DNA of 64,000 nt from Arenimonas sp. SCN 70-307 (GTDB lineage: Bacteria > Pseudomonadota > Gammaproteobacteria > Xanthomonadales > Xanthomonadaceae), in assembly GCF_001724815.1 (NCBI RefSeq), contig NZ_MEDO01000001.1, positions 62,001 to 126,000 of the forward strand, given 5' to 3'. Made by a program: the position numbers and the translations under genes. Within the stretch, counting starts at the first letter, position 1; each line of letters begins with the position of its first letter. Below, piece after piece: positions 18,419 through 30,331 of the stretch. Under the pieces are notes generated by a model, which worked only from the letters and a program-made list of their open reading frames with translations, searched no databases and was not told the DNA's origin.

Positions 18419-19788
18419 CAGGCGCGCCTCCAGCGCACGCCCTGGGCCGTGTCCTCGAGCAGCACGCCTTCCTCGGCCAGCTGCCTGCGGATGGCGTCGG
18501 CACGCACGAAGTCGCGCGAGGCCTTGGCGGCGTTGCGTTCCTCGACCAGGGCCTGGATGCGGGCGTCGTCGCCGGCATCGCCGCCGCGGCTGAACCACGC
18601 TTCCGGCGCCTGCTGCAGCAGGCCCAGCAGCAGGCCACCGCCGAGCAGTTCGGCCTTCAGGCTGGCGCGGGCGATGGGCGACTCGGCCTTGCGGGCCTCG
18701 CCGGCGATGCGCGAGAGCTCGGCCAGCGCGGCCGGCGTGTTGAGGTCGTCGCACAGCGCCGCTTCCACCGCCACCGGCACGATCGGCTCCGTGGCCGGCA
18801 CGCCGGCCAGGTCGCGCAGGGTGCCGTAGAGGCGGTCGAGCGTGCGCACGCTCTGTTCGATCAGCGCATCGGACCACTCCAGCGGCTGCCGGTAGTGGGC
18901 CGAAAGCAGGGCGTAGCGCAGGGCCTCCGGCGGATGCTGGTCGAGCAGCTCGTGCAGGATGGCCACGTTGCCCAGCGACTTGGACATCTTCGCGCCGGAG
19001 AAGTTGAGCAGGCCATTGTGCAGCCAGAAGCGCGCGAACACCGCGCCGCCGTGGGCGCAGGTGGACTGGGCGATCTCGTTCTCGTGGTGCGGGAATTGCA
19101 GGTCGACGCCGCCGCCGTGGATGTCGATGGTCTCGCCCAGGTGCGCCTCGGCCATGGCCGAGCACTCGATGTGCCAGCCCGGCCGGCCCACGCCCCAGGG
19201 CGAGTCCCAGCCCGGCAGGTCGGGCGTGGAGGGCTTCCACAGCACGAAGTCGCCGGCGTCGCGCTTGTAGGGGGCCACCTCGACGCGGGCGCCGGCCAGC
19301 ATTTCCTCCGGGTCGCGGCGCGAGAGCCGGCCGTACTCCGGGAAGCTGGCCACGGAGAACAGCACGTGGCCCTCGGCGGCGTAGGCGTGGCCCGAGTCGA
19401 TCAGGCGCTCGATCATGGCGATGATGTGCGGGATGTGCGCCGTGGCGTGCGGGGTCAGGTCCGGCGGCTCGACGCCCAGCCGGGCCATGTCTTCGGCGTA
19501 GGCGCGGGCGAACTTGCCGGTGATCTCGCCGATCGGCACGCCCTGTTCCCGGGCGGCCTGGTTGATCTTGTCGTCCACGTCGGTGATGTTGCGGGCGTAG
19601 ACCACCCGGCCGTAGCGGCGCCGCAGCAGGTTGGCCAGCACCCCGAACACCACCGGCGGGCGGGCGTTGCCGATGTGCACGTAGTTGTAAACGGTGGGAC
19701 CGCAGACGTACATCGTGACCCGGTGGGGGTCCTGGGGCTCGAAAACCTCGAGCGCGCGGGTCAGGTTGTTGTGAAGTCGCAGTTCCAT
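18418..19788 (-). CDS. cysS: Cysteinyl-tRNA synthetase
   Basis: Class Ia aminoacyl-tRNA synthetase of 456 residues. It has HIGH-type HIGN at about 38-41, zinc ligands in [16 protein letters not shown] and HHENEIAQS, and KMSKS in [11 protein letters not shown] near residue 272. DALR and anticodon-binding regions follow to the end. Length and motif order are normal. It starts a two-gene minus-strand unit with sufE, which links cysteine charging with cysteine-derived sulfur transfer. Confidence 0.98.
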
Positions 19789-19907
19789 GGCAGTACGAAG
19801 GGCGAAAGCGGCAGTCTAGCAAGCCGGGGGCCGGCATTAACGAAAATCTTAGGCCGGGGTTCAGCCGTCCGGTGCTGAAATCCGGGCGTCCCCGAGGAGT
19901 CCCCGCC

Positions 19908-20480
19908 ATGCGTCTCGCCACCCGCTCGATGCCCCTGCTGGTCCTGGCCCTGGCCAGCCTTCCCGCCGCCGCCCAGTACGGCCCCGACGGCCGCTACGGC
20001 GACCAGAGCTACGAGGGCTACAACCGCGCCGTGCCGGAGAACATCAGCTACGGATACGCGCAGGTGCTGCGCGCCGACGAGGTGGTCGAAGTGGTGCGCA
20101 CCCGCACCCCGGAGGAGCGCTGCGACGACGTCGAGTACCGCCAGTCCGGCTCCACCACCACCGGCACCGTGGTCGGCGCCCTGGTCGGCGCGGCCCTGGG
20201 CAACCAGGTCGGCAAGGGCGACGGCCGCAAGGCCGCGACCGTGGCCGGCGCGGTCGCCGGCGGCGCCATCGGCAACAACATCGCCCGCCAGCGCGAAGAG
20301 GCCGAGGCCCGCGGCTGCCGCATCGTCGAAGTCGAGCGCGAGGAAACCCAGGTGGTCGGCTACGACGTCGAGTACATGTACAAGGGCGAGAAGTACGTCT
20401 CGCGGCTGCCCTACGACCCGGGCAACCGCCTGCGGGTGCGCGTTTCGGTCACCCCCGACGAGGCCGGCTACGTCCGCTGA
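19908..20480 (+). CDS. Glycine-zipper 2TM domain protein, exported
   Basis: Predicted periplasmic/outer-membrane protein of 190 residues. The signal peptide ends at ASLPAAAQ, and a Tyr/Gly-rich mature N-terminus follows. The glycine-zipper segment (about 85-130) includes GTVVGALVGAALGNQVG and GAVAGGAIGNNI, as in the Rickettsia 17-kDa antigen/SlyB-like family. A beta-rich tail closes the protein. The ATG at 19908 is preceded by GAGGAG. Function is unknown; the family is linked with envelope integrity. The promoter of the arginine leader begins 2 bp after its stop codon. Confidence 0.85.
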   Translation: MRLATRSMPLLVLALASLPAAAQYGPDGRYGDQSYEGYNRAVPENISYGYAQVLRADEVVEVVRTRTPEERCDDVEYRQSGSTTTGTVVGALVGAALGNQVGKGDGRKAATVAGAVAGGAIGNNIARQREEAEARGCRIVEVEREETQVVGYDVEYMYKGEKYVSRLPYDPGNRLRVRVSVTPDEAGYVR

Positions 20481-20481
20481 G

Positions 20482-20510
20482 TTGCGGCCCCGCCCGCGCG
20501 GCCCCATACT
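20482..20510 (+). promoter_or_regulatory. Promoter of the arginine cluster leader
   Basis: TTGCGG (20482-20487), a spacer of exactly 17 bp and CATACT (20505-20510). Transcription would start at about 20517-20518, on the first base of the leader ATG, so the message is predicted to be leaderless. Confidence 0.55.
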
Positions 20511-20517
20511 TGTGCCC

Positions 20518-20622
20518 ATGATGCAGACCAAGGCCGACGCCGACGTCCTCACCTCCGCCCGCATGGCGGCGGGCATGACCTCGCGCGCGCGCCGACCGGA
20601 ACCCCACAGTTTCGCTGGGTAA
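20518..20622 (+). CDS. Putative arginine-cluster leader peptide (34 aa)
   Basis: Small ORF of 34 codons starting ATGATG directly at the predicted transcription start and lacking a Shine-Dalgarno site. Four codons are for arginine, and three of these lie in the run CGC GCG CGC CGA (20584-20595). That run is immediately followed by the first arm of an RNA hairpin (20596-20626) that contains the stop codon, and then by a terminator hairpin. This layout is what ribosome-mediated attenuation requires: shortage of Arg-tRNA would stall the ribosome on those codons. The peptide itself has no similarity I recognise. Call rests on architecture only. Confidence 0.55.
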   Translation: MMQTKADADVLTSARMAAGMTSRARRPEPHSFAG

Positions 20623-20676
20623 CCGGACGCGCCTGCTCGTTCGCCTGAAAGCCCAGCCCCGCGCTGGGCTTTTTTG
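20596..20676 (+). promoter_or_regulatory. Putative transcription attenuator of the arginine cluster
   Basis: Segment 1 (20596-20609) can pair with segment 2 (20615-20626, flanked by CCGG/CCGG and containing CCC/GGG). Segment 2 also holds GCTGGG (20614-20619), which is exactly complementary to CCCAGC (20652-20657), the 5' arm of the terminator 20650-20676. The 1:2 hairpin would permit termination, and the 2:3 pairing would prevent it. A ribosome paused on the Arg codons covers segment 1 and should favour antitermination. Confidence 0.6.
20650..20676 (+). terminator. Rho-independent terminator upstream of argF'
   Basis: A perfect 8-bp stem AGCCCAGC/GCTGGGCT (20650-20657 with 20663-20670), 5-nt loop and T6 tract. 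It lies between the leader ORF and the first arginine gene, so it must be read through or regulated for the cluster to be expressed. Confidence 0.88.
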
Positions 20677-20712
20677 TTTTCCGGCCCCCGAAATCCCCTC
20701 CAGGACACGCCA

Positions 20713-21717
20713 ATGAAGCACTTCCTCAACACCCAGGACTGGACCCGCGCCGAACTCGACGCGACCCTGGCCCAAGCCGCCGCCTTCAAGGCCGGGCAGG
20801 CCGGGGCCCAGCTCAAGAGCAAGTCCATCGCCCTGGTGTTCTTCAACCCCTCGCTGCGCACCCGCACCAGCTTCGAGCTCGGCGCCTTCCAGCTCGGCGG
20901 CCATGCCGTGGTGCTGCAGCCGGGCAAGGACGCCTGGCCGATCGAGTTCGAGCTGGGCACCGTGATGGACGGCGAGGCCGAGGAGCACATCGCCGAGGTG
21001 GCGCGGGTGCTCTCGCGCTACGTCGACCTGGTGGCGGTGCGCGCCTTCCCGAAGTTCATCGACTGGGCCGTGGACCGCCAGGACAAGGTGCTGCGGGCCT
21101 TCGCGAAGTACTCGACGGTGCCGGTGATCAACCTCGAGACCATCACCCACCCCTGCCAGGAGCTGGCGCATGCGCTGGCGCTGCAGGAGCACTTCGGCAC
21201 GACCGACCTGCGCGGCAAGAAGTACGTGCTGACCTGGACCTACCACCCCAAGCCGCTCAACACCGCCGTGGCCAACTCGGCGCTGACCATCGCCACCCGC
21301 CTGGGCATGGACGTGACGCTGCTGTGCCCGACGCCGGAGTACGCGCTCGACGAGCGCTACCTGGGCTGGGCGCGCGACAACGTGGCCGAGTCGGGCGGCA
21401 GCTTCCGCATGAGCCACGACATCGCCGAGGCCTACGCCGGCGCCGACGTGGTGTACGCCAAGAGCTGGGGCGCCATCCCGTACTTCGGCCGCTGGGACCA
21501 GGAAAAGCCCATCCGCGATGCGCACAGGCACTTCATCGTCGACGAGGCCAAGATGGCGATGACCAACAACGGCGTGTTCAGCCACTGCCTGCCGCTGCGC
21601 CGCAACGTGAAGGCCACCGACGGGGTGATGGATTCGCCCAACTGCATCGCCATCGAAGAAGCCGAGAACCGCCTGCATGTGCAGAAGGCCGTGATGGCGG
21701 CCCTGGCTTCCCAGTAA
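20713..21717 (+). CDS. argF': N-acetylornithine carbamoyltransferase
   Basis: Transfers carbamoyl phosphate to N-acetyl-L-ornithine, giving N-acetylcitrulline, the route used by Lysobacterales instead of ornithine carbamoylation. The 334-residue product matches the length of the Xanthomonas enzyme. Carbamoyl-phosphate loop is [11 protein letters not shown] (about 46-56); [14 protein letters not shown] is the conserved HPxQ block; [15 protein letters not shown] includes the lysine that is carboxylated in the Xanthomonas enzyme. ATG 20713 follows AGGA. It is first in the cluster, just behind the attenuator. Confidence 0.95.
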
Positions 21718-21729
21718 CCCTCTCCCCAA

Positions 21730-21752
21730 CCCCTCTCCCAAGGGGAGAGGGG
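21730..21752. repeat. Intercistronic inverted repeat between argF' and argG
   Basis: CCCCTCTCC(C)AA(GG)GGAGAGGGG forms a 9-bp stem in the 52-bp gap. The T tract after it is only TTT, so it looks like an mRNA-stability hairpin or a short dispersed repeat rather than a terminator. Confidence 0.5.
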
Positions 21753-21769
21753 CTTTCCAGGACCAAGAA

Positions 21770-22966
21770 ATGACCGACAAGCACATCGTCCTCGCCTTCT
21801 CCGGCGGCCTCGACACCAGTTTCTGCATTCCCTACCTGCGCGAGCGCGGCTGGGCGGTGCACACCGTGTTCGCCGACACCGGCGGCGTGGACGCCGAGGA
21901 GCGCGCCTACATCGAGGCCCGCGCGGCCGAGCTGGGCGCCGCCAGCCACGTCACCGTCGATGGCGGCCCGGCCATCTGGAACGGCTTCGTGAAGCCTTTC
22001 GTGATGGCCGGCGAGGGCTACCAGGGCCAATACCCGCTGCTGGTCTCCGACCGCTACCTGATCGTCGATGCCGCGCTCAAGCGCGCCGGCGAGCTGGGCA
22101 CGAACGCCATCGCCCACGGCTGCACCGGCATGGGCAACGACCAGGTGCGCTTCGACCTGGCGGTGAAGGCCGCCGGCGACTACCAGATCGTCGCGCCGAT
22201 CCGCGAAATCCAGAAGCAGCACACCCAGACCCGCGCCTACGAGCAGGCCTACCTGGAAGAGCGCGGCTTCGAGGTTCGCGCCAAGCAAAAGAGCTACACC
22301 ATCAATGAGAACCTGCTGGGCGTGACGCTGTCGGGCGGCGAGATCGACCGCTGGGAAGCGCCGGGCGAGGGCGCCCGCGGCTGGTGCAAGCCGCGCGCCC
22401 AGTGGCCGGCGGCGCCGCTGCGGGTCACGCTCACCTTCAAGGCAGGCGAGGCGGTGGCGCTCGACGGCCAGCCGATGGCCGGCGCGGCGCTGCTGGCCAG
22501 GCTCAACGGCCTGTTCGCCGAGTACGGCGTGGGCCGCGGCATGTACACCGGCGACACCACGATTGGCCTCAAGGGCCGCATCATCTACGAAGCGCCGGGC
22601 CTGGCCGCGCTGCTCGCGGCCCATCGCGCGCTCGAGGAAGCCGTGCTCACCAAGCACCAGAACCGCTTCAAGCCCGAGGTCGCGCGCAAGTGGGTCGAGC
22701 TGGTGTACGAGGGCTTCTACAACGACCCGCTCAAGGCCGACCTCGAGGCCTTCCTGGCCTCCAGCCAGCGCTGCGTGAATGGCGAGGTGGTGCTCGAGAC
22801 CCAGGGCGGCAAGGTCGATGCCGTGGCCATCCGCTCGCCGCACCTGCTCAACGCCAAGGGCGCCACTTACGCGCAGTCGGCCGACTGGGGCGTGGAGGAG
22901 GCCGAGGGCTTCATCCGCCTGTTCGGCATGTCGAGCACCCTGTGGGCCGAGATCAACAAGCGCTGA
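21770..22966 (+). CDS. argG: Argininosuccinate synthase
   Basis: ATP-dependent condensation of citrulline and aspartate to argininosuccinate. 398 residues; the PP-loop is AFSGGLDTS at about 9-17, with [15 protein letters not shown] and the substrate block [17 protein letters not shown] conserved. Here the citrulline comes from deacetylation of N-acetylcitrulline by the next gene. SD AGGA lies 9 nt before ATG. argE starts 1 bp after the stop. Confidence 0.96.
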
Positions 22967-22967
22967 G

Positions 22968-24061
22968 ATGGCCATGCTTCCGAACGTCCTGCAACACCTC
23001 GAAGCGCTCGTCGGCTTCGACACGCGCAACCCGCCACGGGCCATCGGCACCGGCGGCATCTTCGATTACCTGCGCGCGCAGCTGCCGGGCTTCGAGGTGC
23101 GGGTGACCGACCACGGCGCCGGCGCGGTGTCGATGCTGGCCGTGCGCGGCAACCCGCGGCGGGTGTTCAACGTGCACCTGGACACGGTGCCGGCCTCGCC
23201 CGACTGGAGCGCCGACCCGCACGTGCTGCGCGTGACGGCCGACAAGGCCATCGGCCTGGGCGCCTGCGACATCAAGGGCGCCGCCGCGGGCCTGGTCGCC
23301 GCCGCCAACGCCACCACGGGCGACGCCGCCTTCCTTTTCAGCAGCGACGAAGAGGCCAATGACGCGCGCTGCATCGCCGCCTTCCTGGCCTCCGACCACG
23401 GCTTCGAGCAGGCGATCATCGCCGAGCCGACGATGTGCGAGGCGGTGCTCGCGCATCGCGGCATCAGCTCGGTGCTGATGCGCTTCAAGGGCCAGGCCGG
23501 CCACGCCTCGGGCGCCGATGCCTTCGAGCTCAGCGCCGTGCACCAGGCCATGCGCTGGGGCACGAAGGCGCTCGACCACGCCAAGGCGCAGTCGCACGCG
23601 CGTTTTGGCGGGCTGACGGGCCTGCGCTTCAACATCGGCCGCGTCGAGGGCGGCATCAAGGCCAACATGATCGCGCCGGCCGCCGAGCTGCGTTTCGGCT
23701 TCCGGCCGCTGCCCTCGATGGACCTCGACCAGATGCACGCCAGCTTCCGCGGCCTGGCCGATCCGGCGGCGCTGGCGCACTATGAAGAAACCTTCCGCGG
23801 CCCCTCGCTGCCCGCCGGCGACATCGCCCGCGCCGAGGAAAAGCGCCTCGCCGCGCGCGACCTGGCCGACGAGCTCGGCCTGCCCATCGGCAACGCCGTG
23901 GATTTCTGGACCGAAGCCTCGCTGTTCTCCGAGGCGGGACTGACCGCCTTCGTCTTCGGCCCGGGCCACATCGCCCAGGCCCACACCGCCGACGAGTGGG
24001 TCGCGCTCGACCAGCTCGCCGCCGCCGCCAACCACTACACCCGCCTGCTGGAGCAACACGC

Positions 24062-24065
<4 letters not shown>
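22968..24065 (+). CDS. argE: N-acetylcitrulline/N-acetylornithine deacetylase (ArgE type, M20)
   Basis: Zinc-dependent M20 deacylase of 365 residues. Metal and catalytic residues appear in [25 protein letters not shown], the Glu in AEPTM, and the C-terminal [14 protein letters not shown]. In Lysobacterales this enzyme acts on N-acetylcitrulline made by argF'; that specificity is inferred from the cluster. An alternative start is ATG 22974 (MLPN). The end overlaps argB as GTGA. Confidence 0.93.
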
Positions 24066-25369
<1,304 letters not shown>

Positions 25370-25371
25370 AC

Positions 25372-25972
25372 ATGCAGAGCCTGCACTGGACCATTCCGCC
25401 GATCCTCGAGGGCGCGCACGTCAGCCTCGAGCCGCTGCAGCCGCACCACGGCGAGGACCTGCTGGCCGCCGCCGCCGACGGCGAGCTGTGGAACCTGTGG
25501 TACACGCAGGTGCCGGGCCCCGAGACCCTCCGCGCCTGGCTGGCCCGCGCCATGGCCGACCGCGAGGCCGGCACCGCAATGCCCTTCCTCGTGCGCGACG
25601 CCAACGGCGAGCCCGTGGGCAGCACGCGCTTCTTCCGGATGGACCCGGTGGTACCCAGCCTCGAAATCGGTTTCACGTGGTATTCGGCGCGCGTGCAGCG
25701 CACCGCGCTCAACACCGAGGCCAAGCGCCTGCTGCTGGGCCACGCCTTCGACGCCATGGGCTGCAGCGTGATCGAGCTGCGCACGCACGTGATGAACCAC
25801 CGCTCGCGCAGCGCCATCGAGCGCCTGGGCGCCCACTTCGACGGCATCCTGCGCCGGCAGATGCGCATGCCCGACGGCCACCTGCGCGACACCGCGGTGT
25901 ATTCGATCCTCGACAGCGAGTGGCCGGTGGTACGCCGCAACCTCGACTTCCTGCTCGAGCACGGAGGCCGCC

Positions 25973-25980
<8 letters not shown>
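25372..25980 (+). CDS. GNAT family N-acetyltransferase (RimJ/RimL type)
   Basis: 202-residue acetyltransferase of the Acetyltransf_3 type: [10 protein letters not shown]-like N-terminus (here [13 protein letters not shown]), [10 protein letters not shown], an acetyl-CoA region around [19 protein letters not shown], and [20 protein letters not shown]. It starts 2 bp after argB and overlaps argC by 8 bp, so it is embedded in the arginine cluster. Similar genes are found at this place in other Lysobacterales. Its substrate is unknown; acetylation of a cluster intermediate or of a protein are both possible. Confidence 0.85.
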
Positions 25981-26919
<939 letters not shown>

Positions 26920-26923
<4 letters not shown>

Positions 26924-28227
26924 GCGAGCTGCTTTGGCAGAAACCCGGCGTGGAAGTGGACCCGCGCATCCAGGCCTTCCTGGCCGGCGACGACGTGCTG
27001 CTCGACCGCGAGTTCATCCAGGACGACATCACCGCCTCGGCCGCGCATGCCCGCGGGCTGGCGCGCATCGGCATCCTTGGCGGCGACGAGGCCGAGGCGA
27101 TGTGCCGCGAGCTGGCGGCGCTGTCCGAAGACCTCAGGAGCGGCGCCTTCGTGCTCGACGAGCGCTACGAGGACTGCCACTCGGCGATCGAATCGCGCCT
27201 GGTCGAGCGCCTGGGCGACGTGGGTCGCAAGATCCACACCGGCCGCAGCCGCAACGACCAGATCCTGGTGGCCACGCGGCTGTGGCTCAAGCGCAAGCTG
27301 GGCGAGGTGGAGGCGCTGTGCCGTGAGGTCGCCGGGGTCTGCCTTCAGCGCGCGCAGGCCGAAACGCTGCCGATGCCGGGCTACACGCACCTGCAGCGCG
27401 CCGTGGTCTCGTCGACCGCGATGTGGTGGGCGGGCTTCGCCGAGGCCTTCATCGACAACGCCGTGCGCGCCCGCCAGGCGGGCGAGTGGATTGATGCCAA
27501 TCCGCTGGGCACCGCCGCCGGCTACGGCGTGAACCTGCCGCTGGACCGCGAGTTCAGCACGCAAGCGCTCGGCTTCGCCCGCCTGCAGGTGAGCCCGATT
27601 TACGCCCAGCTCAGCCGCGGCAAGTACGAACTGGCCGCGGTCGATGCGCTCGGCGCCGCCGCGCTCGACCTGCGCCGCCTGGCCTGGGACCTGAGCCTGT
27701 TCACCACGGCCGAGTTCGGCTTCGTCAGCCTGCCGGCGCAATACACGACGGGCAGCTCGATCATGCCCAACAAGCGCAACCCCGACCTTGTCGAGCTGAT
27801 GCGCGCCACCTACGCCAGCATCGCCGCCGCCCGCACCGAACTCGAGCAGTTGCTGTCGCTGCCCAGCGGCTACCACCGCGACCTGCAGTTCACCAAGGGC
27901 GCGCTGGTGCATGCCTTCGGCCGCGGCCTGGGCGCGCTGGCCTTGCTGCCCAACCTGCTGCGCGGCCTGCAGTGGAAGCCCGAGCGCCTGGCCCAGGCCT
28001 TCGACGAGGGCATGTACGCCACCGACAAGGCCGTCGAACTCGCGGTCGCCGGCCTGCCGTTCCGCGAGGCCTACAAACTTGCCGCCGCCGAGCCGCTGCC
28101 CTCGCACGGCGCGGACCCGCAGGCGAGCCTCGATGCGCGCGTATCGCCGGGCGGGGCCGCGGCCTTGGGCCTGGATGTGCTCGCTGGCCGGCTGTCCGAG
28201 CTCAAGCTTTCGGTACAGAACGCCTAA
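26920..28227 (+). CDS. argH: Argininosuccinate lyase
   Basis: Last step of the pathway, cleaving argininosuccinate to arginine and fumarate. 435 residues of the fumarase/aspartase superfamily with [23 protein letters not shown] and the signature [15 protein letters not shown]. In related genomes proB-proA often follow; here a toxin gene on the other strand overlaps the last 26 bp. The C-terminus (about LSVQNA) may be slightly altered by that junction. Confidence 0.96.
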
Positions 28228-28519
28228 GCTGGCTGCGTCGCAACAATCGCTCAGTGCGCATCACGTGCACGACGTGGACCTGCTCGCCGTCGTGCCGATA
28301 GAAGACCCTGCATGGCGGTTCGACGATCTGTCGGTAGCGCGACTTGGGCCCTAGTTCCTTGGGGCGGGGCCCGGATTTCGGATGGTCGGCCAGTTGCTTC
28401 ACATGGGCAACTATTCGCCGCACCACGGCTTTGGCCGCTTCCGGATCCTGGATGGCGATGTATTCGGCGATGGCCTCGAGGTCGGCGATGGCCGGCTCGG
28501 TCCAGATTACTTGAGCCAT
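28202..28519 (-). CDS. RelE/ParE family toxin
   Basis: 105-residue type II toxin. Typical elements are [19 protein letters not shown], the conserved [25 protein letters not shown] block and a basic C-terminus. ParE-like members inhibit gyrase and RelE-like members cleave mRNA on the ribosome; which applies here is not clear. It overlaps its antitoxin by 13 bp and the 3' end of argH by 26 bp on the opposite strand. Confidence 0.9.
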
Positions 28520-28764
28520 TTGGCCAGGCGCTTCTCGGCCTGGGCCTGGGTCAGGGTACGGCCCTCCGCGATCGCCATCTCGCCCCGGGCGATGCCTTCG
28601 AGGATGGCCATGCGTTCCTGCTGCAGCTGGTAGGTCTCGACATCGACCAGGTAGGCGCTCGGCAGGCCGTGTTGGGTGATCAGGATGGGCTGCTTGTCCC
28701 GCTCGACGTCAGCCAGCAGGTCGGTCGCCTGGCGCTTGAGGGTGGTGACGAGTTCGGTTCGCAT
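28507..28764 (-). CDS. Phd/YefM family antitoxin
   Basis: 85-residue antitoxin. The N-terminal half is a Phd/YefM DNA-binding fold (LLADVERDKQPILITQHGLP, then AYLVDVETYQ). The C-terminal half is a charged toxin-neutralising tail (IAEGRTLTQAQAEKRL). It is first in the pair, overlapping the toxin start. The palindrome just upstream is the likely autoregulatory operator. Confidence 0.9.
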   Translation of the reverse strand: MRTELVTTLKRQATDLLADVERDKQPILITQHGLPSAYLVDVETYQLQQERMAILEGIARGEMAIAEGRTLTQAQAEKRLAKWLK

Positions 28765-28766
28765 GG

Positions 28767-28786
28767 AGTGACACTAAAGTATCACT
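28767..28786. promoter_or_regulatory. Candidate operator of the toxin-antitoxin pair
   Basis: AGTGACAC...TATCACT is an imperfect inverted repeat 3-22 bp upstream of the antitoxin ATG, in an AT-rich patch. Phd/YefM antitoxins commonly bind such sites, so autorepression is inferred. Confidence 0.45.
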
Positions 28787-28841
28787 TGGTCAGGGTCAAG
28801 TCGGCAGTTTGCCTGCTGCTGGGTGTGACTATCGCCCGGCT

Positions 28842-28997
28842 TCATGTAAGGCAAGCAAGTCGCGCAGCCGTCGGCCATCCAGAGTGCATGCGGATGGTCT
28901 CGAGCTGGAGGCAGGCGACGCTTTCGGGCAGCTCCGTGGCTGTCACGTAGTGCGCGTCCACGCACCAGTCTCCGATTGCCTTGTAGTCCCGCTTCAT
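28842..28997 (-). CDS. Possible small ORF coupled to the DUF3999 gene (51 aa)
   Basis: ATG 28997 overlaps the DUF3999 stop as ATGA, the usual sign of translational coupling. The 51-residue product starts MKRDYKAIGDWCVDAHYV and is cytosolic-looking. It is not recognised. In another frame its last third reads LDGRRLRDLLALHEAGR before a stop, which looks more like an ordinary C-terminus. The present form may therefore be a frameshifted remnant of a slightly different protein. Composition here is less GC-rich than the neighbours. Confidence 0.35.
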   Translation of the reverse strand: MKRDYKAIGDWCVDAHYVTATELPESVACLQLETIRMHSGWPTAARLACLT

Positions 28998-30331
28998 GGG
29001 GACGATTGATTCGGCTGCCGCAGGACCTTCAGCGCCACGACCAGGACGAGGGCGGCTCCGACTGCCAGGATCGCCCACAGCAACCATCGCTGCCAGTCCT
29101 CGCCGCGCTTCGGCGCCAGTGCCGCCGCGCCGCCCGCGTCGCTCATCGCGCCCAGCGTCGCCACCGCAGGCTCCGAACTCGATGCCGCGAGCGCGGCCTT
29201 CACCGGATAGTCCTCGCGCTGGGCGCGCACGCTGCCGGCCACCAACACGTAGGGACGCGGGCCCTGGGCGAGCAGCACGAAGCGCTCGGGGCGATAGCGA
29301 AGCCGCAGTTCCGGCGGGCGCGTGAGCGCAGGCTGGGTGCTGACGCGCCACTGGCGCTCGCGATGCAGGTGCACGGCGGGCTCGACGTGGCGCACTTCGT
29401 CGCCGTTGCTGCCCAGGCGGAAGGCGATGAAGCCGGTGACGGGGCGCCACCAATCCTCGGCATGGTCGCGGGCCGTCACCTGCACGGCGGCCACGGCATT
29501 GTTGGTCGGCAGTTCGACATCCACGCGCTCGATGGCCATCGGCCCGGGGCTGGTGTAGTCGAACATGCCCGGCTGCCCGGCCACGGCCACGCCGGCCAGG
29601 GACACCATCTGCCAGGGGCGCTCATCGCCGCTGCGCAGATGGCGGCCGGTCTGCAGGCCGGCCAGCGCCGGCCAGCTTCCCTCGTTCTCGATCGAAAGGC
29701 GCAGGTAACGGGCATCGGTGCGCCCCAGCTCGAGCTTCAGGCGCTCGATGCGCAGGCCGTTGTCGTCCAGGGCCACCAGCGGCTGGCCGGACACCAGGGG
29801 GCGCCATTCCACCAGGTCCCCGGACGAGGACACGCGAACGCGCAGGTTCACCGGCAGCGCGGCATCATCGGCCAGGGTCACGTGCAGCGCCGAGATGGTC
29901 GGCGGCTCTTCGCCGCGATCGACGAGCAGGTCATGGCGTTCGGCCGGCGGCGGCGCCGTGTCGTTCGTGCGCAGGTCCAGTCCGCGCAGGCGGCCATCGG
30001 CATCGCGCTCAAGACGCAGCGCCAGGCTTTCCGGCTGGCCCGCCTGGGGCAAGGGCACGCGCAGCCACGGCACCGGCTCGAGCAGCTCGTCGTCGGTGCC
30101 TTCCGGCGGCCAGGGTGCGAAGGGCACGGGCTCGCCGTCGGCGTTGAACACGGCCAGGTCGCGCAGGTCGGCGCGGGTGACGTGCAGCAGCACGGCGGCG
30201 TCGAGCTCGAGCACGTACGCCGCGGCGTCGCCTTCGGCCTGCACCGGCCACTGCACGGCGTAGTCCTGCGGCGTCGCGCTCGCGTGCGCGAGCCCGGTGG
30301 CCAGCAGTCCGAGCATCAAGACAGTTCGCAT
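28994..30331 (-). CDS. DUF3999 family exported protein
   Basis: 445-residue protein with a signal peptide (MRTVLMLGLLATGLAHA), a large beta-rich periplasmic domain and one C-terminal membrane helix (WLLWAILAVGAALVLVVAL, about 410-435). A short basic/Pro tail follows. It is the usual partner of the DUF2339 membrane protein, whose stop lies 4 bp upstream of this start, so the two are almost certainly one operon. Function is unknown; the topology suggests a periplasmic sensor or chaperone anchored in the inner membrane. Confidence 0.88.
   Translation of the reverse strand: MRTVLMLGLLATGLAHASATPQDYAVQWPVQAEGDAAAYVLELDAAVLLHVTRADLRDLAVFNADGEPVPFAPWPPEGTDDELLEPVPWLRVPLPQAGQPESLALRLERDADGRLRGLDLRTNDTAPPPAERHDLLVDRGEEPPTISALHVTLADDAALPVNLRVRVSSSGDLVEWRPLVSGQPLVALDDNGLRIERLKLELGRTDARYLRLSIENEGSWPALAGLQTGRHLRSGDERPWQMVSLAGVAVAGQPGMFDYTSPGPMAIERVDVELPTNNAVAAVQVTARDHAEDWWRPVTGFIAFRLGSNGDEVRHVEPAVHLHRERQWRVSTQPALTRPPELRLRYRPERFVLLAQGPRPYVLVAGSVRAQREDYPVKAALAASSSEPAVATLGAMSDAGGAAALAPKRGEDWQRWLLWAILAVGAALVLVVALKVLRQPNQSSP

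Follow-up and report, generated by a model that had tools for sequence, protein, structure and literature searches.

A Conserved Arginine-Codon Leader Upstream of argF' in Arenimonas and Its Relatives: A Probable Ribosome-Mediated Attenuator

Described Leaders and the Identity of the Element

Ornithine is sensed by SpeFL, the leader peptide of speF. The relevant passages on the Salmonella speF leader describe a short open reading frame (ORF), orf34, with two consecutive Arg codons, at which ribosome pausing in the absence of arginine refolds the downstream RNA (PMC6386406). The element treated here lies upstream of argF' in a stretch of 64,000 nucleotides from Arenimonas sp. SCN 70-307 (contig NZ_MEDO01000001.1, positions 62,001 to 126,000; hereafter the window), where a short ORF with late Arg codons is followed by an intrinsic terminator and a cluster of arginine genes. 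Very probably, it is a ribosome-mediated transcription attenuator of this cluster. The basis of this reading is the anatomy of the leader, its conservation, the covariation of its helices, the restriction of its Arg codons and the absence of ArgR from the family sample. From these, we infer translation of the leader, stalling, antitermination, a response to arginine and a cluster transcribed as one unit.

The element has been described before under another heading. Bases 20519-20643 match the Rfam family RF02242, "Xoo5", with 67.6 bits (cut-off 50), and this was the sole match within 19000-30000, where no riboswitch or T-box family was found at E up to 1. The passages on Xoo5 report that it was cloned from Xanthomonas oryzae as a small RNA (sRNA) of 124 nt, the 5' end of which was determined by rapid amplification of cDNA ends (RACE). 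On Northern blots it gave bands of about 130 and 100 nt, both early in growth and the short one only later (PMC3039613). It was noted there that clones from untranslated regions in general may attenuate transcription, which the Xoo5 passages do not say of Xoo5, and the words argF, ornithine and transcarbamylase are absent from the paper (PMC3039613). RF02242 is the same element as the window leader, filed as an sRNA and, in the passages of PMC3039613 on Xoo5, without an arginine link.

Anatomy of the Leader

The features of the leader, all on the plus strand, are as follows.

20482-20510, plus strand: promoter-like pair TTGCGG-17-CATACT (TTGCGG 20482-20487, CATACT 20505-20510), read directly
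20518-20622, plus strand: leader ORF of 34 codons and TAA (20620-20622), MMQTKADADVLTSARMAAGMTSRARRPEPHSFAG, with its ATG at 20518-20520
20572-20598, plus strand: conserved peptide core GMTSRARRP, with near-invariant residues and silent third-base changes
20581-20595, plus strand: possible small hairpin over the Arg codons (TCG...CGA), from the RNAalifold consensus, without compensatory change
20584-20595, plus strand: control codons CGC GCG CGC CGA, with Arg codons at 20584, 20590 and 20593
20596-20626, plus strand: hairpin 1:2, arms CCGGAACCC and GGGTAACCGG, with the stop codon inside
20614-20620, plus strand: segment 2, the 5' arm of the antiterminator, GCTGGGT
20651-20657, plus strand: segment 3, GCCCAGC, common to antiterminator and terminator
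20647-20675, plus strand: intrinsic terminator 3:4, stem 20647-20673, with T6 at 20670-20675

An initial annotation had proposed a leader-peptide attenuator here, and direct reading places its promoter-like pair, 34-codon ORF, Arg codons, hairpin 1:2, 6-nt complementarity and T6 terminator exactly where it had put them. GCTGGG (20614-20619) is the exact complement of CCCAGC (20652-20657), and an extra G.U pair brings the helix to seven. A terminator scan of 701 bases on both strands gave three sites, two of which are the leader terminator, against 0.5 expected.

The same annotation had taken the transcript to be leaderless. A strict sigma-70 scan listed no promoter at the leader locus. In the f1-type subset of 96 leaders (f1 being the window's family), a TTGC starting 35-39 nt 5' of the start codon gave 95 matches, and in 95/96 the last base of a loose -10 hexamer, NANNNT, lies 6-11 nt 5' of the start codon. 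Position 1 of the RF02242 model would be the RACE end, as suggested by the agreement of 124 model positions with 124 nt, and on this mapping the RNA of Xanthomonas-type loci has its start codon 2 nt inside the 5' end. With the RACE end so placed, at about 2 nt or less from the start codon of the Xanthomonas leader, a nearly leaderless transcript is supported. In the window, position 1 aligns to 20519, and therefore use of a second in-frame ATG at 20521 is also possible. In f12 a leaderless start is not established; of 110 leaders, 12 gave no result in the promoter test, and nine of these 12 belong to f12 or f3.

Conservation across the Order

Relatives were compared at two levels: argF' loci of named organisms, which are the best 80 of 576 relatives and hence the closest ones, and a sample of 299 genomes of the order, 79 of which belong to f1. 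It follows from the named loci that f1 is Xanthomonadaceae; for f12, Rhodanobacteraceae is a guess. The alignment upstream of argF' that the initial annotation had called for shows the short ORF and its late Arg codons kept in relatives. A leader with the same type of ORF is present at 80/80 named loci, with the strict core pattern at 78; the other two read SMTSRARRP.

At E 0.001, RF02242 was found in 101/299 genomes of the order, including 73/79 of f1. A second model, R1, was derived from an alignment of 55 leaders, which represent the 90%-identity clusters of 110; it matched 263/299 genomes at the same threshold, several of the weak matches being chance terminators. Strong R1 matches were found in 79/79 f1 genomes (best E at most 1.4e-19), and, among the matches listed, in 75 f12 genomes (E at most 4.9e-20) and three f2 genomes (E at most 4.4e-18); sixteen genomes without a match fall outside the listing. 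Eight f3 genomes matched at E of at most 6.3e-11; one more, G076, matched at 9e-4, and G055 was unmatched. The core set used below leaves out 17/127 loci in which no core was found, three of which were looked at and proved to be minus-strand loci that had not been turned. Weak matches at L156, L157 and L159-L162 were rejected as chance terminators; they do not lie before argF'.

With an E limit of 1e-7, a search for the leader outside the order, in 369 genomes of the class, gave eight matches. Five of these come from members of the order, and the remaining three (L167, L168, L169) were rejected, as they consist of the end of the preceding gene and a terminator without an Arg run. The terminators of L167 and L168 stand directly before argD genes and probably end the transcript of the preceding gene; L169 stands before no argF.

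For the distant families, 30 genomes were hand-picked for an argF' search, and leaders were selected visually as Arg-rich, irrespective of codon type. L195-L198 were left out of the locus reading (L195 and L196 being f4 and f8 loci), and L194 was read by eye. A leader was seen at 20/22 argF' loci read in f3-f7 and f9; three f8 genomes had no argF' match. Weak R1 matches added the leaders L149, L151, L152, L153 and L154 (f7) and L158 (f10). Before argF' in f4, f6, f7, f9 and f10, the peptides are unrelated to the window's and carry Arg runs, and the terminator is kept. Runs outside f1, f2, f3 and f12 include RRRR, RRLRRP, RRVRRT, LRRRRT, RRRPRPR and others. Upstream of argF' in L152, L176 and L181 (f7), the peptides share the pattern GF..LRR....PGWVA, and f7 may be a second clade that holds residues beyond the arginines. 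At L180 (G007 contig C7), the coding part of the leader upstream of argF' is in tandem duplicate beside an N, which is probably an assembly artefact.

Mutually Exclusive Helices

Helix statistics were taken on the 55-leader alignment, and the tests treat leaders without control for relatedness. The antiterminator 2:3 has 97.9% of its cells paired; a shift of the partner by one to three columns lowers this to 21.6-56.1%. One of its pairs is UA in 36 leaders, CG in 10 and UG in six, and the leaders of the CG type are nine from f12 and L045 from f1. The terminator 3:4 is paired in 98.4% of cells, with five pairs changed on both sides. The two helices are mutually exclusive, and both are kept by compensatory change. 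With each leader's own arms the energies were -14.4 kcal/mol for 2:3 and -13.9 kcal/mol for 1:2, vs -13.4 and -12.6 kcal/mol with arms exchanged between leaders, and 0/5000 permutations were as good in either case.

In the distant families the layout recurs. In 25 distant leaders (L151 standing outside this set), the stretch of seven bases that pairs best with the terminator arm lies 6-26 nt after the last Arg of the run. It pairs with segment 3 at 7/7 positions in 16 leaders, at 6/7 in seven and at 5/7 in two. In five of the seven 6/7 leaders the mismatch, C.A or A.A, is central in the helix, and L174 is doubtful.

These helices bear on the published view of Xoo5 as an sRNA. A trans-acting sRNA, with an incidental link to argF', would account for the short RNA seen by cloning and Northern blotting (PMC3039613). 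However, at the 80 named loci and among the distant leaders the element is always found before argF', its ORF is under coding selection and the mutually exclusive helices are kept, so that a purely trans-acting RNA is very unlikely. Attenuator RNAs can act in trans, as rnTrpL does, and the leader may have a trans role besides attenuation in cis.

Control Codons and the Leader Peptide

Codons were counted in a core set of 96 distinct leaders (f1, f12 and one f3). The control Arg codons are CGC or CGT, again CGC or CGT, and CGA (95/96), and never CGG, AGA or AGG. Four codons before the core, an Arg is encoded by CGG in 50/77. CGA makes up 0.4% of the 1395 Arg codons in 80 argF' genes. In 24 distant leaders (without L151 and L177), 104/108 codons of the Arg runs are CGC, CGT or CGA. 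CGA accounts for 32/108, vs 8.6% of the Arg codons in the same argF' genes (p 3e-10), and other Arg codons for 4/108 vs 35% (p 2e-15), codons being taken as independent in both tests.

The window genome has one tRNA-Arg gene each for the anticodons ACG, CCG, TCT and CCT, among the 43 matches covered. The ACG tRNA-Arg decodes CGU, CGC and CGA. According to the passages on the his leader of Salmonella, the reading of Arg-Arg pairs took longer with CGA than with CGU or CGC, although all three are served by the same tRNAs (PMC4046918). Taken together, the restriction to CGC, CGU and CGA, the decoding by the ACG tRNA and the slow reading of CGA indicate that the control codons belong to one isoacceptor, by the general decoding rule, with its slowest codon last in core leaders.

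The small hairpin over the codons is a competing reason for the fixed TCG and CGA, in core leaders only. That pairing by itself restricts the Arg codons was rejected because distant leaders, with other peptides, have the same codon bias, and because a T-T third-base pair occurs roughly as often as expected (six times vs 7.9). Sensing of proline through the codon after CGA was also rejected; there is only a single such codon, and Arg stands there in 3/96 distinct leaders.

It is true that chance Arg-rich frames do occur in such regions, and such a frame of a GC-rich genome might simply have come to lie before an ordinary terminator. Unless the alignments are wrong, chance is excluded by the covariation, the coding selection and the presence of CGA in 95/96 leaders against its rarity in argF' genes, which makes this explanation hardly credible.

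Selection on the peptide was followed on an argF' tree of 96 leaders, namely the 80 named loci, the window and 15 further loci (f1, f12 and one f3). At codons -5, -2, 0, 2, 4, 5 and 6, four changes at positions 1 and 2 were counted vs 90 at position 3. Ala, Ala, Gly, Thr and Ala are therefore held as amino acids and, judged by this substitution pattern, the peptide core A..A.GMTSRARRP is under protein-level selection in the window's clade. This coding selection also speaks indirectly for translation of the leader. The core motif was seen in f1, f2, f3 and f12. A known attenuator, His_leader, sought for a comparison of peptide conservation, was found in 0/60 genomes of the family.

The substitution pattern and the retention of the motif in four families are what would be expected of nascent-peptide arrest, in which the chain A..A.GMTSRARR(P) would slow or stop the ribosome, with or without a small ligand, and the Arg residues would act in the tunnel and not as consumers of charged tRNA. 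The selected residues also adjoin the stall site, as those of arrest peptides do (f1, f12 and one f3). However, f4, f6, f7, f9 and f10 retain the Arg run and the RNA layout with an unrelated peptide. Moreover, if arginine caused the arrest, segment 2 would become free and the genes would be turned on in the presence of arginine, presumably the wrong sign for biosynthesis. Arrest by the peptide in place of codon reading is therefore quite unlikely. Since the Arg run and terminator are more widespread than the motif, the shared basis is the codon mechanism, to which the peptide has been added. The addition could make f1, f2, f3 and f12 hybrid sensors, in which scarcity of the tRNA-Arg isoacceptor would be joined by a tunnel-acting pause of the nascent chain at CGA that makes the response to arginine sharper, or the peptide, once released, would act elsewhere; this is possible, if rather doubtful.

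Antitermination controlled by a protein or ligand, with a leader peptide without a role, was considered as well, as a terminator/antiterminator pair alone serves any sensor. No riboswitch was matched at E up to 1 within 19000-30000, and such control would leave the coding selection and the Arg-codon restriction unexplained; it is most improbable.

Proposed Mechanism and Its Weak Points

In the attenuator favoured here, transcription would begin at the AUG of the leader or a few bases off, and a ribosome would translate the leader behind the RNA polymerase. As long as charged tRNA-Arg is plentiful, the ribosome would reach the stop codon in 1:2; segment 2 would then be covered or base-paired to segment 1, and the 3:4 terminator would form. 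In a shortage of charged tRNA-Arg, chiefly of the ACG isoacceptor, the ribosome would stall at CGC or CGA. The stalled ribosome would hide segment 1 (20596-20604) and free segment 2 (20614-20620) for segment 3, and argF' to argH would be transcribed. By the ribosome footprint size, a ribosome with CGA in its A site would cover the RNA to about 20605.

Several points weigh against this mechanism. With the ribosome halted at the first Arg codon, segment 1 would stay uncovered, and the conservation of the peptide exceeds what a codon-only attenuator needs. Hairpin 1:2 is the least supported helix, with 75.5% of its cells paired in a poor alignment; its own arms do pair better than swapped ones. 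Of the three covarying stems foreseen by the initial annotation, 2:3 and 3:4 were borne out by compensatory changes. Segment 2 is mismatched in L069, L072 and L124, which breaks the 2:3 pair, and in several distant leaders, of which L187 and L190 are the two that pair 5/7. The folding energy of the whole leader is ordinary (z -1.39; 22/200 shuffles as good), and the 1:2 region alone folds no better than shuffles (z -0.59). Since these energies are like those of shuffles, folding energy alone does not reveal the leader; conservation does. Finally, no leader was seen at argF' of L173 (f5) and L185 (f9), and neither genome has an ArgR match; the two controls therefore do not cover every genome. 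Nevertheless, the leader-peptide attenuator came through the conservation test, as the codons, 2:3 and 3:4 are kept in relatives and distant families keep the Arg run.

ArgR in the Order

The initial annotation had named ArgR as the usual control in proteobacteria. In the f1 sample this does not hold: ArgR (PF02863) was matched in 0/79 genomes of the family, the window genome included, and in 8/14 control genomes. Control by ArgR was therefore ruled out for the family sample. Within the order, ArgR was matched in 8/299 genomes, all of which belong to f11. In three f11 genomes read, no leader was seen before the argF-like gene, which is only 40-42% identical to argF' (L192, L193, G011 contig C17). 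In G011, an ArgR match lies 1.4 kb from the argF-like gene. It is possible that in f11 the regulator was swapped together with the enzyme.

Genes Downstream of the Leader

As the initial annotation had said, an arginine cluster lies downstream of the leader, and profile matches confirm it, with argF' from 20713.

20713-21717, plus strand: argF', N-acetylornithine carbamoyltransferase (NF003384, 618 bits, cut-off 288)
21770-28227, plus strand: argG, acetylornithine deacetylase, acetylglutamate kinase, a GNAT-like protein, argC and argH

The genes 3' of the leader are thus makers of arginine, the amino acid proposed as sensed. The argH profile score, 277.5 bits, is just below the cut-off of 279.5, and the GNAT-like protein has a weak match to an exception model only. 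Among the best 80 of 576, the closest named argF' genes are from Arenimonas (93% identity) and from one contig labelled Rhizobium sp. (94%). The latter, L032 (JAIBEO010000217.1), carries the same leader and is probably a mislabelled bin. On the minus strand, a RelE/StbE-like toxin gene at 28202-28519 shares 26 bases with the 3' end of argH; its TIGR02385 score, 26.3 bits, falls slightly short of the cut-off.

Comparison with Known Systems

No arginine attenuator in this order was found in the full-text literature searched; subscription papers lie mostly outside it, and an earlier report is possible. The main text of Naville and Gautheret contains neither "arginine" nor "argF" (PMC2965389). For this order, the view of the initial annotation that no arginine attenuator is established agrees with these searches, and it is qualified by the related speF leader with Arg codons, the nearest case found, described in the passages of PMC6386406.

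If the attenuator reading is true, Xanthomonas, Stenotrophomonas, Lysobacter and relatives use a cis control of arginine genes instead of ArgR, an Rfam "sRNA" becomes a leader-peptide attenuator, and arginine joins the amino acids sensed by classical attenuation. With the leader in families without an ArgR match and none at three argF-like f11 loci, a swap from a protein to an RNA regulator would be traceable. In theory, attenuators use the isoacceptor most sensitive to starvation, and the restriction to CGC, CGU and CGA makes this idea testable.

The speF leader differs from the present one in that orf34, by the same passages, controls a putrescine gene via Rho, sequestration of the ribosome-binding site and RNase G, with no intrinsic terminator (PMC6386406). 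In layout, the present leader resembles the attenuators of the his, trp, leu and thr type, with which it shares the late product codons in a leader ORF, the alternatives 2:3 and 3:4 and probably 1:2, and the intrinsic terminator before the first gene. Unlike these, the window leader would sense arginine, has its start codon at or near the 5' end, and has a peptide conserved in four families. The rhizobial trpL/rnTrpL also has its ORF at the 5' end of the transcript and a released leader RNA that is a small RNA, and differs in its amino acid, tryptophan, and in its hosts, the Alphaproteobacteria.
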